Shown piece after piece: positions 12,814 through 17,510 of a stretch of DNA of 33,022 bases. Position 1 is the stretch's first letter. Every line of letters starts with the position of its first letter. Source of the DNA: Chryseobacterium sp. 39-10 (GTDB taxonomy: Bacteria > Bacteroidota > Bacteroidia > Flavobacteriales > Weeksellaceae). The position numbers and the translations under genes are program-made. Location of the stretch: the NCBI GenBank assembly GCA_001898255.1, contig MKTK01000034.1:89163-122184 (forward strand), written 5' to 3'. Under the pieces are notes generated by a model. That model had not been told where the DNA came from. It did not search any database and was given only the letters and a program-made list of their open reading frames with translations.

Positions 12814-13788
12814 TCAATTTAAAAAATCTAAATTTTTCATGATTGCTTCAGCTTTAAGCTCCGTTTCTCTCCATTCGTTTTCTGGCGAGCTGTCGGCTGT
12901 TATTCCGCCACCCACATAAAGCAATGCAGCGTTCGAGAACAATTCAGCACAGCGTAAATTAACGAAATACTGCACAGTTTCGTCATCTTCATATCGAATA
13001 TAACCAGCGTAGAAATTTCGGGGGTATTTTTCAAATTTTTGAATGGCTTCCTCGCAAAACTGCTTCGGGATGCCACAGACAGCGGGAGTAGGGTGAAGTG
13101 CCGAAATAATTTGTTCGAGATCGTTTTTGTCGATGACGGTTTTAAAATCGGTTCGCAAATGTTTAATATTCCCCGATTCATGGCTGTAGGTTTCCGATTG
13201 TTGTACTTCAGTGGAAAAATGAGCCAGGACTTTTGCTATATAGTCGGTAACTGGTTTTTGTTCCTCGATTTCCTTCGATGTCCATTCTTCGTGCAAAGGA
13301 AGTGTTCCTGCTAAACTCATGGTTTCAAATTCGGAGGTTTTCTTGTTGAATTTTCCCAACACTTCAGAAAAAGCGCCGATCCATGATTTTCCGTCTTTCA
13401 AAAACAAATAGGAAAATGCGTTGGGATAAGATTGGCAAAGGTTAAGAAAAGATTCCGTAAGATTCAACTTTTCAAAAGGAACTTTTTTTCTTCTGGAAAT
13501 AACCAATTTAGCCAGATGATTTGCGTTGATCAATGCAATGACCTGCTTTAGTTTTTGCAAATAATCTTGCTTACTTTCTTCTTCGAAATTGATGGGCGGT
13601 ATTGATAATTGGTCTGATAATAGCGGTTCCGCAATGAGTTCTTCTTTTTTTACCGTTGAAATATTACCGAAGAAATTTAAAGTTTCTTTACCATTGAAGG
13701 AGATAAAGTTCACAGCATTCCTGTCAGAATTTTCCCCAGTAGTCAGGATTTGATCGGAAAAAGGCAACTTAAAATACAGCATATCCAT
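12814..13788 (-). CDS. menF: Isochorismate synthase / chorismate-binding enzyme
   Basis: A 324-residue Mg2+-dependent enzyme converting chorismate to isochorismate. In this context that is most likely the first committed step of menaquinone synthesis. Motifs are HLAKLVISRR (catalytic-base Lys94 region), MSLAGTLPL, SALHPTPAVCG, FYAGYIRYED, LYVGGGITADSSPENEWRETELKAEAI. It is shorter than E. coli MenF/EntC because the N-terminal region is reduced. A hotdog thioesterase gene lies 49 bases upstream. A siderophore (EntC) role is possible in principle, but no siderophore genes are present. A second ATG exists two codons downstream. Confidence 0.9.
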   Translation of the reverse strand: MDMLYFKLPFSDQILTTGENSDRNAVNFISFNGKETLNFFGNISTVKKEELIAEPLLSDQLSIPPINFEEESKQDYLQKLKQVIALINANHLAKLVISRRKKVPFEKLNLTESFLNLCQSYPNAFSYLFLKDGKSWIGAFSEVLGKFNKKTSEFETMSLAGTLPLHEEWTSKEIEEQKPVTDYIAKVLAHFSTEVQQSETYSHESGNIKHLRTDFKTVIDKNDLEQIISALHPTPAVCGIPKQFCEEAIQKFEKYPRNFYAGYIRYEDDETVQYFVNLRCAELFSNAALLYVGGGITADSSPENEWRETELKAEAIMKNLDFLN

Positions 13789-13837
13789 TGAGGCAAAAGA
13801 GCATTGAAGGCATCAAAAATTCAATAATGCTTTATCG

Positions 13838-14266
13838 CTATTGAGGGCGGGGAATAATATTATTGGTCATGGTGGTGTGGTTGATCAGGTGACCTTTCTC
13901 GTCACGGATTTCAATTTCGGAAACGTGCATCGTATTGCCTTTGCGGATAAAACGTGCAGTTCCGGTAACGATGCCATCTTTTTTACTTCGCAAATGATTA
14001 GAGTTGATATTGGTGCCCACTGGTACCACCACATTGGTATCTACATGAAGAACTGAGAGGCAAGAACCCAGAGTTTCTGCCAAAACGCAATTTGCACCGC
14101 CATGTAAAATTCCGTAGGGTTGATGCACCTTAGGCGTAACAGGCATGGTGGCGGTTAACGAGTTTTCGGAAACATCGGTAAATATTATATCGAGGTTTTT
14201 GGCTAAATTTTCTCCACCCCAATGGTTGAGTCGGTTCAGTATTTCTTCTTTGTGATCGAAATTCAT
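13838..14266 (-). CDS. Hotdog-fold acyl-CoA thioesterase, likely DHNA-CoA thioesterase
   Basis: A 142-residue PaaI/YdiI-type thioesterase. The active-site helix QPYGILHGGANCVLAETLGS matches the YdiI/MenI group, including the catalytic Glu of LAE. The position directly before isochorismate synthase suggests hydrolysis of 1,4-dihydroxy-2-naphthoyl-CoA in menaquinone synthesis (MenI role). The family has broad substrates, so the specific role is inferred from context. It follows the acyltransferase gene by 11 bases. Confidence 0.88.
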   Translation of the reverse strand: MNFDHKEEILNRLNHWGGENLAKNLDIIFTDVSENSLTATMPVTPKVHQPYGILHGGANCVLAETLGSCLSVLHVDTNVVVPVGTNINSNHLRSKKDGIVTGTARFIRKGNTMHVSEIEIRDEKGHLINHTTMTNNIIPRPQ

Positions 14267-14277
14267 AGCGTTTTGTT

Positions 14278-14850
14278 TTAGTAAATCTGTGGATTCCAGT
14301 TTTGCGGCACTTTTGGCGTAATTTTGTAATTGACATAATACTCCTGAATTTCCTTCATGATTTCTTCGTAGGATGAACTGGCAATTTTTTCGTACGGAAT
14401 TTTATACCCCAAATACATGGTTTTCGTTTTGAAATCGCCTGCTGCAAGCACAATAGGAACTTTTGCAGCCAGTGCCATGTGGTAAAAACCTTTGCGCCAT
14501 TTCGGTACCCAACTTCGGGTTCCTTCTGGTGTGATGACCAAGCTGAAATCCTCTTTTGCGAACTGCCTTGCAACGAAATTTACAAGGTCATTTTTCTGTG
14601 ACCGGTCGATGCCGATGCCGCCTAACGCTTTTACGATGCCGCCGTACCAAGCTTTCGTATGGGTATCTTTAATGATGATTTTCAGAGGTTTTCCTAATGA
14701 CCAATAGGCGAGATTGCCGAGCAGGTATTCGCTGTTATGGGTATGTGGCGCAACGGCGAGGATGCAGCGGTCAAGATTATTAACATCGCCTTGCAGAACG
14801 ACCTTCCAGCCGATGATTTTCAGGATGAGTTTGCCGATGAATTTTTTCAT
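14278..14850 (-). CDS. PlsC-like acyltransferase with HX4E in place of HX4D
   Basis: A 190-residue relative of 1-acylglycerol-3-phosphate acyltransferases. The start at 14850 (MKKFIGKLILKIIGW) is preferred over the frame extension to 14901, which runs into a terminator hairpin. The PEGTR box is intact at 108-112, followed by KWRKGFYHMA. The catalytic box reads APHTHNSE (34-41), with His36 kept but Glu41 where the canonical Asp should be. LAYWSLGKPLKIIIK and GGIGIDRS are typical of the Bacteroidota short form. Substrate is unknown. It may start the run that includes the thioesterase and menF. Confidence 0.85.
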   Translation of the reverse strand: MKKFIGKLILKIIGWKVVLQGDVNNLDRCILAVAPHTHNSEYLLGNLAYWSLGKPLKIIIKDTHTKAWYGGIVKALGGIGIDRSQKNDLVNFVARQFAKEDFSLVITPEGTRSWVPKWRKGFYHMALAAKVPIVLAAGDFKTKTMYLGYKIPYEKIASSSYEEIMKEIQEYYVNYKITPKVPQNWNPQIY

Positions 14851-14880
14851 GTGAAACCGAAAACTTATTGTGGATGATTG

Positions 14881-14918
14881 AAATAAAAAAGTATAACCCA
14901 ACTTAATCGGTTATACTT
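14881..14918 (-). terminator. Rho-independent terminator downstream of the small ORF
   Basis: AAGTATAACC (14889-14898) and GGTTATACTT (14909-14918) form a perfect 10-bp stem with a 10-base loop. On the minus strand the stem runs directly into TTTTTTATTT. It sits 28 bases past the 20-codon ORF and 31 bases before the acyltransferase start. An alternative reading is a 5' leader hairpin of the acyltransferase mRNA, because TATATTTG lies immediately upstream. Confidence 0.75.
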
Positions 14919-14920
14919 GA

Positions 14921-14928
14921 CAAATATA
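14921..14928 (-). promoter_or_regulatory. -7 promoter element (TATATTTG) before the acyltransferase gene
   Basis: TATATTTG on the minus strand with a T-rich, non-consensus -33 region. A transcript from it would begin near the left edge of the adjacent hairpin. Confidence 0.35.
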
Positions 14929-14946
14929 CTGAATTTAAAATTCTGA

Positions 14947-15009
14947 CTAAAAAAATTGGCTGACGAAATCCATAATCTTAATGGCGATTTCAATAACAAA
15001 CTGTACCAT
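14947..15009 (-). CDS. Possible 20-residue amphipathic membrane peptide
   Basis: An ATG-TAG frame coding MVQFVIEIAIKIMDFVSQFF. Polar residues fall at 3, 7, 11, 14, 17 and 18, so a helix would carry one narrow polar stripe on an otherwise hydrophobic surface. That pattern resembles TisB-like type I toxins and phenol-soluble modulins by design, not by homology. The frame is bracketed by a plausible promoter (TTG-N19-TATCTTCG, predicted start near 15051) and a strong terminator (14881-14918). This gives a compact transcript of about 170 bases that contains nothing else. I do not recognise the peptide; coding is a hypothesis. Confidence 0.4.
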   Translation of the reverse strand: MVQFVIEIAIKIMDFVSQFF

Positions 15010-15055
15010 GGCGGGTCTATATTTGAGGTTATGTTTTTTTAAACATTTAACAGTA

Positions 15056-15085
15056 CGAAGATAGTTTTTATTTTAATCTGTACAA
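15056..15085 (-). promoter_or_regulatory. Promoter of the small-ORF transcript
   Basis: On the minus strand, TTG (15085-15083), 19 bases, then TATCTTCG (15063-15056), one mismatch from TAnnTTTG. The leader to the ATG at 15009 would be about 42 bases and contains a 6-bp hairpin (ATGTTT/AAACAT). A perfect TATATTTG on the opposite strand at 15018-15025 could drive an antisense transcript across this leader. Confidence 0.4.
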
Positions 15086-15123
15086 CGCATTGCTCTGTTA
15101 ATTTTTATTTAAATTTTCAGTCG

Positions 15124-15182
15124 GATGAACAAGCGAAAAGCGAAAAAACTGTTGATGTTCAGGATTCCGCTTTTGCTCATCC
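15124..15182. repeat. Imperfect inverted repeat after the PspC gene
   Basis: GGATGA...GCGAAAAGCG on the left and CGCTTTTGCTCATCC on the right pair with a bulge around a 25-base loop, beginning just past the PspC-protein stop at 15190. It lacks a clean T-tract, so termination is possible but unproven. Confidence 0.35.
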
Positions 15183-15189
15183 ACTCTCA

Positions 15190-16860
15190 TTATTTTGTTT
15201 TAATGATGATTTCTTTTTTGCCGTCTTTCACGGTGATGTCGATGTCTTTAAGGTCCTTCTTATCGATTTTTTTCAGAATAAGATCGCCGTCTTCCTTACT
15301 CACTTTTTTACCATTGACAATAATAGAGTCTTTGTCGGTGGATGATACTACAATTGAATTTTTAGAACTGTTGACTGTTGTGCTGTCTGCATCATCATGT
15401 TCATCGTCTTTAGCCGAATCGTCATTTAAATAGAATCCATTTTCATTGTTTAATGCAATTACTTTCATCCTTTTGGGCACCACCAGTTGATAATCTACCC
15501 GATAATCTCGAAAACGGTAATCATACGGATAAGAGAAGTAATTGGGAAGCATAATTTTATTGTCTACAATTTCAACCGGAACTTGCATTTTTAAGGGGAT
15601 GTTATACCCATCGGCTCCTTTTTTAATTTCTAGATATGGCGCTTTCACATCCATTCTTTTTACTTCAATATTAGGATAATCTTTTTTGAAGATCGTTTTT
15701 TTATCGGAGTAAACATCATCCCAATAAGAATCGAAATTTTGAGGGATATTGACTTTTTTAATATCGACATAAATAGAATCTGAGGTGGTATTGATTGCCA
15801 CATTTTCACTTTCATCATTGTTTCCGCTGTATTGGGTCTTCAGTTTTATAGCACTTAAACCTGTAGCTGTAGCCAAAACGATCCACAAAATCACCAATCC
15901 ACCAAAAACATATCCAGTGTTATTGAGTCTTGTTTTGGGCGAGAACAGCTTCATCGCGAGATAGCAGAAGATGAGTGCGGGAATAAAGATCGTGAGGAAA
16001 CCCACTGCGATGGCAAGAAAACCAAGGTTATTATCCTGAAGGTAAAAGCCAAGATTATCAAAGAAATGGACATTATTGCTCCCAGCAAAACCAAATATGG
16101 CAAAAGAGGAAAGCAATAGAGAACCACCGGTTAGCGCAAATATAGCACCGAGAATATACCGGATTGCATTCCAAAGACCGCTTCCTGCCTTATTGATATA
16201 GGGTTTGTTTTCAGTATAGATTTCTCCCACACGTTGCGTAGATTCGTTGGCAAACTGAACGATTTTATTTGATTCTTCTTTAATGTTATCAAAGTTGATA
16301 GGTTTACCCTTCATCTTTAGGAAATCGGCGGCCGATTCTGCTTTGGGCATCACCAGCCAAAGAATGATGTATAGGAAAACGATAAGCATCGGTGAGCCAG
16401 GAAGGGGGATGAGCAGTAAAAATAATCCCACCCAAATGGCACGCATTGCAGCAATGTCCATCCCCACATAATGGGCTAAACCAGCGCAAACTCCTGCAAT
16501 TTTTTGTTTCTCAGGATCGCGGAAGAGTTGTTTCTGCTTGGTGGAATTTCCTGATCTTTTCTGTTCGCTTTTTTGGGTTTTCTCAGAAAAATATACTTCT
16601 TCCTGTTCTTCGATGAGTTCGGGTTTACCAATTTGCGCAATCACTTTTTCTACGTCGGTATCATTAATCACTTCACGTTTTCCTAGTGTATCTTTGAAAA
16701 TTTCTACCATTCTGATTTCGATGTCGTGCATTACTTCATCTGCTTCGCTGGCGTCCAAAGAATTTCGTAGCGCTGCAAGATAATCGTTGAGCTTGATGTA
16801 TGCGTGTTCCTCAATGGTGAAAGAGAAACCGGCTAATCCTATTGAGAGTGTCTTGTTCAT
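15190..16860 (-). CDS. PspC-domain membrane protein, long Bacteroidota form
   Basis: A 556-residue inner-membrane protein. Residues 1-90 are soluble and helical. A PspC domain follows at about 111-175 (QLFRDPEKQKIAGVCAGLAHY, then one long hydrophobic hairpin). Three more membrane segments lie at about 232-252, 278-303 and 318-338, and a beta-rich tail of about 200 residues (from 345) is rich in Asp/Lys. PspC proteins belong to envelope-stress (phage-shock) responses. The PadR gene five bases upstream makes a regulator-effector operon common in this phylum. The tail has no named domain that I can identify. Confidence 0.88.
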   Translation of the reverse strand: MNKTLSIGLAGFSFTIEEHAYIKLNDYLAALRNSLDASEADEVMHDIEIRMVEIFKDTLGKREVINDTDVEKVIAQIGKPELIEEQEEVYFSEKTQKSEQKRSGNSTKQKQLFRDPEKQKIAGVCAGLAHYVGMDIAAMRAIWVGLFLLLIPLPGSPMLIVFLYIILWLVMPKAESAADFLKMKGKPINFDNIKEESNKIVQFANESTQRVGEIYTENKPYINKAGSGLWNAIRYILGAIFALTGGSLLLSSFAIFGFAGSNNVHFFDNLGFYLQDNNLGFLAIAVGFLTIFIPALIFCYLAMKLFSPKTRLNNTGYVFGGLVILWIVLATATGLSAIKLKTQYSGNNDESENVAINTTSDSIYVDIKKVNIPQNFDSYWDDVYSDKKTIFKKDYPNIEVKRMDVKAPYLEIKKGADGYNIPLKMQVPVEIVDNKIMLPNYFSYPYDYRFRDYRVDYQLVVPKRMKVIALNNENGFYLNDDSAKDDEHDDADSTTVNSSKNSIVVSSTDKDSIIVNGKKVSKEDGDLILKKIDKKDLKDIDITVKDGKKEIIIKTK

Positions 16861-16865
16861 GTTGG

Positions 16866-17201
16866 TTAGTTTATCGTTTTTTGAGTGATTTGATTGACGG
16901 AATCGGTAAGTTCATTCCATGTATTGGTAAGTTCAGCAAGAAAGAGCTTTCCTTTTTCAGTGATCTGGTAGTATTTTCTTGGCGGCCCACCGGTAGATTC
17001 TTCCCAGCGGTAGGTGAGGAACTCGCTGTTTTTAAGTCTTGTGAGCAAGGGATAAAGGGTTCCTTCCACCACATCTAGTTTTCCTTTCTTAAGCTCGTCA
17101 ATCAGGTCAGAAACATACATTTCTTTCTGGTCGATTAAACTCAGGATACAGAATTCCAGAATTCCCTTTCGCATTTGCGCTTTGGTGTTTTCTGCGTTCA
17201 T
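16866..17201 (-). CDS. PadR-family transcriptional regulator
   Basis: A 111-residue winged-helix regulator. The family pattern is clear: MRKGILEFCILSLI, MYVSDLIDELKKG, VVEGTLYPLLTRLKNSEFLTY, then the wing GGPPRKYYQITEKGKLFL. It is first in the operon with the PspC-domain gene, so it most likely controls that operon and itself. A consensus promoter and an inverted repeat lie upstream. The inducing signal is unknown. Confidence 0.95.
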   Translation of the reverse strand: MNAENTKAQMRKGILEFCILSLIDQKEMYVSDLIDELKKGKLDVVEGTLYPLLTRLKNSEFLTYRWEESTGGPPRKYYQITEKGKLFLAELTNTWNELTDSVNQITQKTIN

Positions 17202-17286
17202 TATTATGAGGTTATTAATTGGTTTAACACGGTTGAAGAGTCAGGCGATCGCTTGTATTAAAATCTGCTTCTTCAACTTTACAAAG

Positions 17287-17318
17287 CAAAGATATGTAAT
17301 AAAGATAGTATTATGCAA
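17287..17318 (-). promoter_or_regulatory. padR-pspC promoter (TTG-N21-TATCTTTG)
   Basis: On the minus strand TTG (17318-17316) is followed after 21 bases by TATCTTTG (17294-17287), a full match to TAnnTTTG. The leader to the PadR ATG is about 80 bases. Confidence 0.6.
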
Positions 17319-17321
17319 TAC
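17308..17321. promoter_or_regulatory. Candidate PadR operator
   Basis: GTATT-ATGC-AATAC is a perfect 5-bp-arm inverted repeat that overlaps the -33 element of the padR promoter, the expected place for an autorepressor site. PadR operators are typically short AT-rich palindromes; assignment is by position only. Confidence 0.35.
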
Positions 17322-17432
17322 AAAGTAGTAAAAATGTTTTAATTTAATCTTAATGTATTGATTATCAACACGAAAATTTTAATGCAAAATTACTTATGGT
17401 ATATTACAATGTTTTAGAAACCTTATTGACTT

Positions 17433-17487
17433 TTGAAATGGATAATTTTTTCCTCAAGAAAATTTTCTAAGAACGATGCCATTTCAA
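17433..17487. repeat. Inverted repeat with 9-bp arms
   Basis: TTGAAATGG (17433-17441) and CCATTTCAA (17479-17487) are exact reverse complements separated by 37 bases that contain a smaller GAAAATTTTC palindrome. No flanking T-tract. Function unknown. Confidence 0.4.
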
Positions 17488-17510
17488 GACAGAGCTAATT
17501 TTTCGGAATA

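Follow-up and report, generated by a model that had tools for sequence, protein, structure and literature searches.

The Psp system of enterobacteria has small membrane partners (PspB, PspD, and PspG), each several times longer than a 20-residue peptide, and the amphipathic helix of PspA is thought to partition onto stressed or curved inner membrane. Phenol-soluble modulins have a short amphipathic helix and no signal peptide, and SpoVM is an amphipathic helix of 26 residues. SpoVM of Bacillus is described as a small curvature-sensing protein in passages of PMC4307972, and modules of the PSP/Lia type include PspC, LiaI–LiaF-TM, Toastrack, and HAAS-PadR in passages of PMC11237479. Here, we describe a locus in the window (the whole stretch of 33,022 nt of Chryseobacterium sp. 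39-10 DNA that was analyzed), where a 20-residue peptide is encoded beside genes of the latter type.

The peptide, MVQFVIEIAIKIMDFVSQFF, is the product of the minus-strand ORF 15009–14947, which consists of 20 codons plus a stop. The features around it are listed in Table 1. A gene for a thioesterase-family protein comes after the acyltransferase gene. The domains of the PspC and PadR proteins were assigned with Pfam, which returned no match to a HAAS domain for the PspC protein of the window. An earlier note on this DNA had listed the 20-codon ORF, a promoter, a terminator, and a promoter-like box on the opposite strand; all these elements are found in the sequence as described. It had compared the layout with type I toxin–antitoxin loci or small membrane-active peptides, with a non-coding small RNA (sRNA) as the alternative.

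Table 1. Positions of the peptide gene, its neighbors, and the predicted signals in the window.
Feature	Position	Strand	Basis
PadR-family regulator gene, upstream of pspC	16866..17201	-	Pfam
PspC + LiaI-LiaF-TM + Toastrack protein gene, 556 aa, upstream gene	15190..16860	-	Pfam
TTAACA box, putative, 38 nt upstream of the -7 box	15096..15101	-	Conserved spacing
TTG, proposed -33	15083..15085	-	Spacer of 19 to TATCTTCG; not conserved
-7-like box TATCTTCG (TAnnTTYG), predicted mRNA start near 15051	15056..15063	-	Sequence, relatives, position rule (PMC9723704)
Antisense TATATTTG, proposed antitoxin promoter	15018-15025	+	Not conserved
Leader of the predicted peptide mRNA, without Shine-Dalgarno-like sequence	15010..15051	-	Sequence
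Gene for 20-codon peptide MVQFVIEIAIKIMDFVSQFF, with stop	14947..15009	-	ORF translation; conserved coding
Perfect -7 box TATATTTG, probable acyltransferase promoter, predicted start 14916	14921..14928	-	Position rule (passages of PMC9723704)
10-bp hairpin + T-run, peptide mRNA terminator and predicted acyltransferase mRNA 5' end	14885..14918	-	
Acyltransferase gene (PF01553), 190 aa, downstream gene	14278..14850	-	Pfam

The genus was taken as Kaistella, which is placed in Weeksellaceae, and 35 other sampled genomes of the same genus served as congeners. A query with the 20-residue peptide shows that it is encoded in all 35 congeners, in one place each; these are among the 47 of 100 genomes that match at an E-value of 1 or better. 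One match (G074) without flanking synteny is probably a chance match and was dropped. A DNA query of 291 bases matches 47 of 100 genomes (own included) at 0.001 or better, all 35 congeners among them. Some of the weakest of these 47 matches are short stretches, and many of the strong alignments run from the ATG to the hairpin. Similarity gathered 161 loci, 113 of them unique. Six of the 113 scored below 40 and were dropped as non-members, and the remaining 107 members are 104 orthologues and three paralogues.

The pattern of substitutions is that of a coding sequence. For the 36 unique Kaistella ORFs, the in-frame pN/pS is 0.184, compared with 0.937 and 2.584 in the shifted frames; for all 104 orthologues, the corresponding values are 0.315 versus 0.747 and 1.750. 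Third codon positions vary across the alignment. No stop codon interrupts any of the 104 orthologous ORFs, though this absence is partly by construction because similarity was the criterion for collecting the members. None of 300 shuffles of the alignment columns attains the mean BLOSUM score seen for the actual changes, and as few changed residues as in the observed alignment are found in 22 of the 300. The peptide has 20 residues in 96 of the 107 members, 21 in 10, and 22 in one. Among the 104 orthologues, Q3 is kept in 104, E7 in 95, K11 in 94, D14 in 98, L19 in 97, and F20 in 93. Judging from these patterns, the ORF is a real gene under selection on its peptide, and it is almost certainly translated. 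Conserved coding in relatives, which the earlier note had proposed as a check, is borne out by the congeners and the in-frame ratio.

These observations bear on the sRNA alternative, in which the ORF would be fortuitous. The similarity at the DNA level indeed spans the 3′ UTR and the hairpin as well as the ORF. However, the in-frame pN/pS (0.18), the third-position variation, and the constant length argue against this alternative, and no Rfam match is found for the window at the gathering threshold or for five loci at E 0.1. Of the 22 conserved pairs predicted for 19 Kaistella sequences, only one, in the terminator, is altered on both sides; apart from the terminator, no convincing conserved RNA structure is found there. 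Because selection acts at the codon level, an sRNA is very unlikely, with a probability close to nil. Over its full length of 174 nt, the predicted RNA shows no unusual degree of structure (z −1.15), and a tRNA scan gave none. A pairing of CAAATATA in the leader with the 3′ TATATTTG, suggested by the RNA fold, occurs in one of the 36 Kaistella sequences and was rejected as not conserved.

The periodicity of the peptide should be noted. The mean hydrophobicity and the hydrophobic moment of the window peptide are 0.52 and 0.50, respectively, and this moment is reached by 0.11% of 20,000 shuffles. For each of the 107 members, 1% or fewer of its own 500 shuffles reach its moment, and the mean moment over the members has its maximum at 100°. 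The net charge is −1 in 97 of the 107. Among 28 divergent or paralogous peptides, with S, T, and G scored as polar, position 3 is polar in 26, position 7 in 27, position 11 in 19, position 14 in 27, and position 18 in 26; one of these peptides (L212) fits the stripe solely when read from the Met one codon upstream. The polar stripe at 3, 7, 11, 14, and 18 of a hydrophobic helix, which had been pointed out for the window peptide, is thus largely kept in divergent members even where the residues change. The single amphipathic helix under selection is what characterizes a standalone membrane micropeptide with a SpoVM-like mode, and its pattern suggests that the peptide very probably lies in the plane of a membrane. 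Congener conservation, pN/pS, and the moment against shuffles together support the earlier reading of the locus as an unannotated short unit for a genuine small amphipathic peptide.

A peptide that is short and amphipathic and lacks a leader could also be an exported or membrane-lytic one that acts on other cells in the manner of phenol-soluble modulins, and one of 20 members scanned gives a weak match to PSMdelta of Pfam (E 0.0077). The other 19, the window peptide included, have no Pfam match at E 1. The presence of one gene per genome in the congeners, the mostly fixed synteny, the strong purifying selection, and the predominant net charge of −1 also argue against such a role, and the adjacent genes are not those of exporters. 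We regard a modulin-type function as distinctly unlikely.

Within the family, profile A1 of the peptide matches 229 of 246 Weeksellaceae genomes at E 10 or better and 189 of them (hand count) at 1e-4 or better. In the six genera where A1 is weak or silent, a second profile, A2, matches 25 of the 39 genomes, and these belong to four of the genera. Reading of the 330 nt before the acyltransferase gene in 24 family loci gives the peptide ORF in 14 and none in 10. The genera with the peptide amount to approximately 26 of the 33 sampled: A1 below 1e-6 accounts for 17 and A2 for four, and another five (g2, g15, g26, g57, and g3, the last without synteny) are counted from synteny or weak matches. Those with named members include Kaistella, Epilithonimonas, Elizabethkingia, Cloacibacterium, Cruoricaptor, and Chryseobacterium. 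The peptide was not found in g6, g8, g16, g18, g19, g55, and g59, each represented by a few genomes, with those of g6 and g8 being 79% and 83% complete. Among 246 genomes of the order, the best match outside the family has an E-value of only 0.031. Three matches from other families among 295 genomes of the class (E 0.017–0.026) were rejected, as they lie inside reading frames with 263, 349, and 442 codons. Neither the regions downstream of PspC in 20 other-family genomes nor the stretch ahead of the acyltransferase homologue in 16 loci of other families yields a convincing peptide. Judging from these matches, the peptide appears to be kept across much of Weeksellaceae, with no convincing match outside it in the sampled genomes of the order and class. 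In one genome (G245), contig C2 is a 27.8-kb palindromic, near-identical duplicate of the chromosomal locus that inflates copy counts; the extra copies on it (L157 and L158) were excluded as an assembly artefact.

The signals upstream of the gene are conserved in part. The motif TAnnTTYG begins 39–58 nt before the ATG in all 36 Kaistella sequences and occurs in 63 of the 68 other orthologues. TTG is found 17–23 nt upstream of this motif in four of the 36 and nine of the 68. The promoter proposed for the window, TTG followed by a 19-nt spacer and the box, has both parts in place, but only its −7 box is conserved. In 31 of the 36 Kaistella sequences and 20 of the 68 other orthologues, a TTAAC box begins 36–38 nt upstream of the −7 box. 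An ECF promoter may be considered, although the conserved TTAAC box seems to lie further upstream than the usual spacing of an ECF −35. What brings such a promoter to mind is the CGT of the −7 region, and the flavobacterial promoter box occupies positions −12 to −5 (both in passages of PMC9723704). In the genome of the window, the box arrangement occurs here and in one other place, and the reversed control gives one match. A scan of 13500–17500 for promoters and terminators of the Escherichia coli type listed neither the promoter nor the terminator; its sigma-70 hexamers and its loop limit of ≤8 do not cover either.

Some further repeats are observed around these signals. GTTA stands just after the −7 box in 26 of the 36 Kaistella sequences, and a second TTAAC or TTATC is present in the leader in 29. 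Between the pspC stop and the TTAACA box, an imperfect inverted repeat, GGATGAGCAAAAGCGG.../...CGCTTTTCGCTTGTTCATCC, spans 15110–15189 on the minus strand, and part of it recurs by eye in several Kaistella loci.

As for the start context, GGAG, AGGA, and GAGG are absent from the 17 nt before position −3 in all 36 Kaistella leaders. The residue is A at −3 in 29, at −11 in 36, at −12 in 32, and at −13 in 28 of these leaders, positions that are close to those named for F. johnsoniae (−3, −6, −12, and −13) in passages of PMC6847099. The start context of the window itself is weaker than that of its relatives, with G at −3 and T at −12.

The short transcription unit for nothing but a small hydrophobic peptide, together with the perfect box TATATTTG on the plus strand at 15018–15025, had suggested a type I toxin–antitoxin locus, in which a membrane toxin is repressed by an antisense RNA started from that box. 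The box is present; however, it is found in one of the 36 Kaistella sequences, namely the window's own. Any antisense TAnnTTTG occurs in two of the 36 and in 13 of the 104 orthologues, at scattered positions. By this promoter-box test, an overlapping antisense RNA gene is not conserved, and of the features of type I loci the locus shares the short hydrophobic or amphipathic peptide. The gene is also widespread, mostly syntenic, and single-copy. The type I reading is not supported, as the antisense box is found in the window's sequence alone among the 36 and each of the 35 congeners has one copy, and we give it very little probability.

Downstream of the ORF, the perfect 10-bp stem and T-run described earlier are present at their site: 14918–14909 pairs with 14898–14889, and the T-run reaches 14885. 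The hairpin sets in 28 nt past the stop of the ORF. TAnnTTTG lies within 140 nt after the ORF in all 36 Kaistella sequences and 66 of the 68 other orthologues, and it stands close before a hairpin with a T-run in 98 of the 103 orthologous loci scored. A hairpin is found in all 103, one more locus being too short to score. The median hairpin score is 16.0 versus 9.7 in 309 mononucleotide shuffles, and 96 of the 103 exceed the 95th percentile of the shuffles. The hairpin of the window scores 14.4, whereas the score after any other TAnnTTTG in the window is at most 12.5. The stem sequence is wholly different in g2 (AGATAGCC/GGCTATCT). The start predicted from the second box, 14916, coincides with the base of the stem, so that one hairpin would terminate the peptide mRNA and form the 5′ end of the acyltransferase mRNA; TAnnTTTG before the hairpin probably starts the latter. 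In two genomes (G052 and G107), the TAnnTTTG-hairpin is present between pspC and the acyltransferase gene, and no peptide ORF is found there. The hairpin is therefore, at least in part, an element of the acyltransferase gene and is no marker of the peptide. These two genomes also bear on a refutation proposed earlier, namely relatives in which the hairpin and promoter are kept and the ORF is broken: none of the 104 orthologous ORFs, gathered by similarity, is broken, but the element does occur without the ORF.

The order of a short ORF, a hairpin with a T-run (in 103 of 103 scored orthologues), and the acyltransferase gene might also be that of a leader peptide whose own translation controls the hairpin and hence acyltransferase expression, and its high content of Ile, Val, and Phe resembles that of some biosynthetic leaders. 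The position of the hairpin, 28 nt past the stop and behind its own −7 box (98 of 103), does not favor such attenuation. The ORF and the terminator do not always go together as in an attenuator: the hairpin is alone in G052 and G107, and by eye the ORF is alone, without the TAnnTTTG-hairpin element, in the three paralogue loci. In addition, it is the hydrophobic residues that swap freely, and Q3, E7, K11, and D14 that are kept. A leader peptide is therefore given little probability.

The linkage of the gene to its neighbors was counted in 138 entries, which include the three paralogues and count one genome (G155) twice. In Kaistella, the peptide gene is mostly between the PspC-domain gene and the acyltransferase gene. 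The end of PspC is within 400 nt in 113 of the 138 entries, the acyltransferase gene is within 300 nt in 129 and is the more faithful neighbor, and both are so placed in 109. Exceptions are found on the PspC side: two Kaistella loci (L045 and L057) have no PspC within 1.5 kb, and PspC is 1–2 kb off in many Epilithonimonas loci, in one of which (L131) two other ORFs lie between. Among the 24 family loci, PspC is without a peptide-like ORF in six (G052, G107, G050, G106, G102, and G136). Neither neighbor is near in the paralogue loci and L182.

In all 22 loci of g10, g22, and g54 (L301–L317 and L319–L323), the ORF overlaps the 3′ end of pspC. The overlap with the PspC-like frame is 41 nt in seven loci and 53 nt in 15, one base out of frame. 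The survey of 25 loci also covered three of g17, where the overlap is 20 nt in one and absent in two. The conservation of the overlapping ORFs is weaker evidence because their first part is also constrained by pspC. The arrangement in the three genera points to possible translational coupling. The linkage (113 of 138) and the overlap in 22 loci are what would be found for a component of a PSP/Lia-type module.

The paralogues, which start with MVT or MIT, are found in three genomes, two of Epilithonimonas (G126 and G148) and one of g58 (G123), at loci L160, L161, and L279. Their upstream neighbors are lspA-like and DUF218-like genes, assigned by Pfam for L160 and by eye for the other loci, and a histidine kinase gene lies downstream. 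In G123, two small ORFs lie between the peptide and the histidine kinase gene.

The closer linkage to the acyltransferase gene (129 versus 113 of 138) raises the possibility that the peptide is a factor on the membrane surface, linked to phospholipid metabolism, that assists or targets the adjacent acyltransferase instead of PspC. At one locus (L206), the ORF stops 7 nt before the ATG of the acyltransferase gene, with no PspC found in 1.4 kb. Against this possibility, the conserved −7 box and hairpin stand between the two genes in 98 of the 103 scored orthologues, the overlap in three genera is with pspC, the paralogues are not beside an acyltransferase gene, and the peptide is missing before the acyltransferase gene in 10 of the 24 family loci. 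On balance, a partnership with the acyltransferase is unlikely.

We tentatively favor, at somewhat below even probability, an accessory or regulatory role for the 20-residue helix as a subunit of the PspC/LiaF-TM/Toastrack-PadR envelope-stress module. The locus would be a translated micro-gene whose product folds as a single amphipathic α-helix and lies in-plane at the surface of the cytoplasmic membrane, where Q3, E7, K11, D14, and S/N18 point outward and the hydrophobic face is in the lipid. There, the peptide would report or stabilize the membrane state for the neighboring module. The link to PspC and PadR is supported by the linkage and the pspC overlap, whereas it is weakened because the acyltransferase is the more faithful neighbor, PspC loci without the peptide exist, and the paralogues are elsewhere. 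A more specific proposal, which we consider rather doubtful, is that the peptide is the sensor or effector of a PspA-free envelope-stress system, partitioning onto stressed or curved inner membrane and signaling to PspC/Toastrack and then to PadR. The peptide would in that case rank among the smallest conserved signaling subunits, and during evolution its ORF would have changed between overlap and translational coupling with pspC on the one hand and a promoter of its own on the other.

Because it is kept across much of the family, usually beside an envelope-stress gene, the peptide looks real and overlooked rather than part of a toxin–antitoxin pair. Pfam, NCBIfam, and PADLOC give no family match for the window peptide, and solved structures searched with profile A1 give one chance-level match (E 0.28). 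Among the papers listed on Weeksellaceae small proteins and small RNAs, PSP and PspC-PadR systems, and Bacteroidetes type I toxins, in a literature that is largely open-access and without preprints, none describes the peptide, and its sequence strings are not found there. On the comparative evidence, the locus looks like a previously overlooked, unannotated working gene. With 20 codons it is below the length usually annotated, and it is kept across much of a family with measurable selection on helix geometry. A missing part of PspA-free PspC-PadR stress modules has a concrete candidate in this peptide, and the locus provides a comparative signature for finding further such micropeptides as well as a case where a real small gene is told apart from a toxin–antitoxin look-alike.

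Comparison with the known systems places the peptide as follows. It resembles type I toxin peptides in being a short hydrophobic peptide from a short transcription unit, but differs from them in having no conserved antisense promoter and one copy in all the sampled congeners. It shares its length class, the amphipathic helix, and the lack of a signal peptide with phenol-soluble modulins (Pfam PF19693), from which the matchless 19 of 20 members, the mostly syntenic position, the purifying selection, and the usual charge of −1 set it apart. The neighboring PspC and PadR genes match the domains of PSP/Lia-type modules, HAAS apart, in passages of PMC11237479; a standalone short peptide is absent from these passages, and the term "small protein" does not occur in the main text. 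As a small membrane partner of a Psp system, the peptide would be comparable by description to PspB, PspD, and PspG, though the enterobacterial proteins are far longer. SpoVM belongs to Bacillus, another phylum and setting, and the likeness to it is one of description: both are tiny, conserved, chromosomally encoded peptides, and the one described here is likewise expected on the membrane surface.
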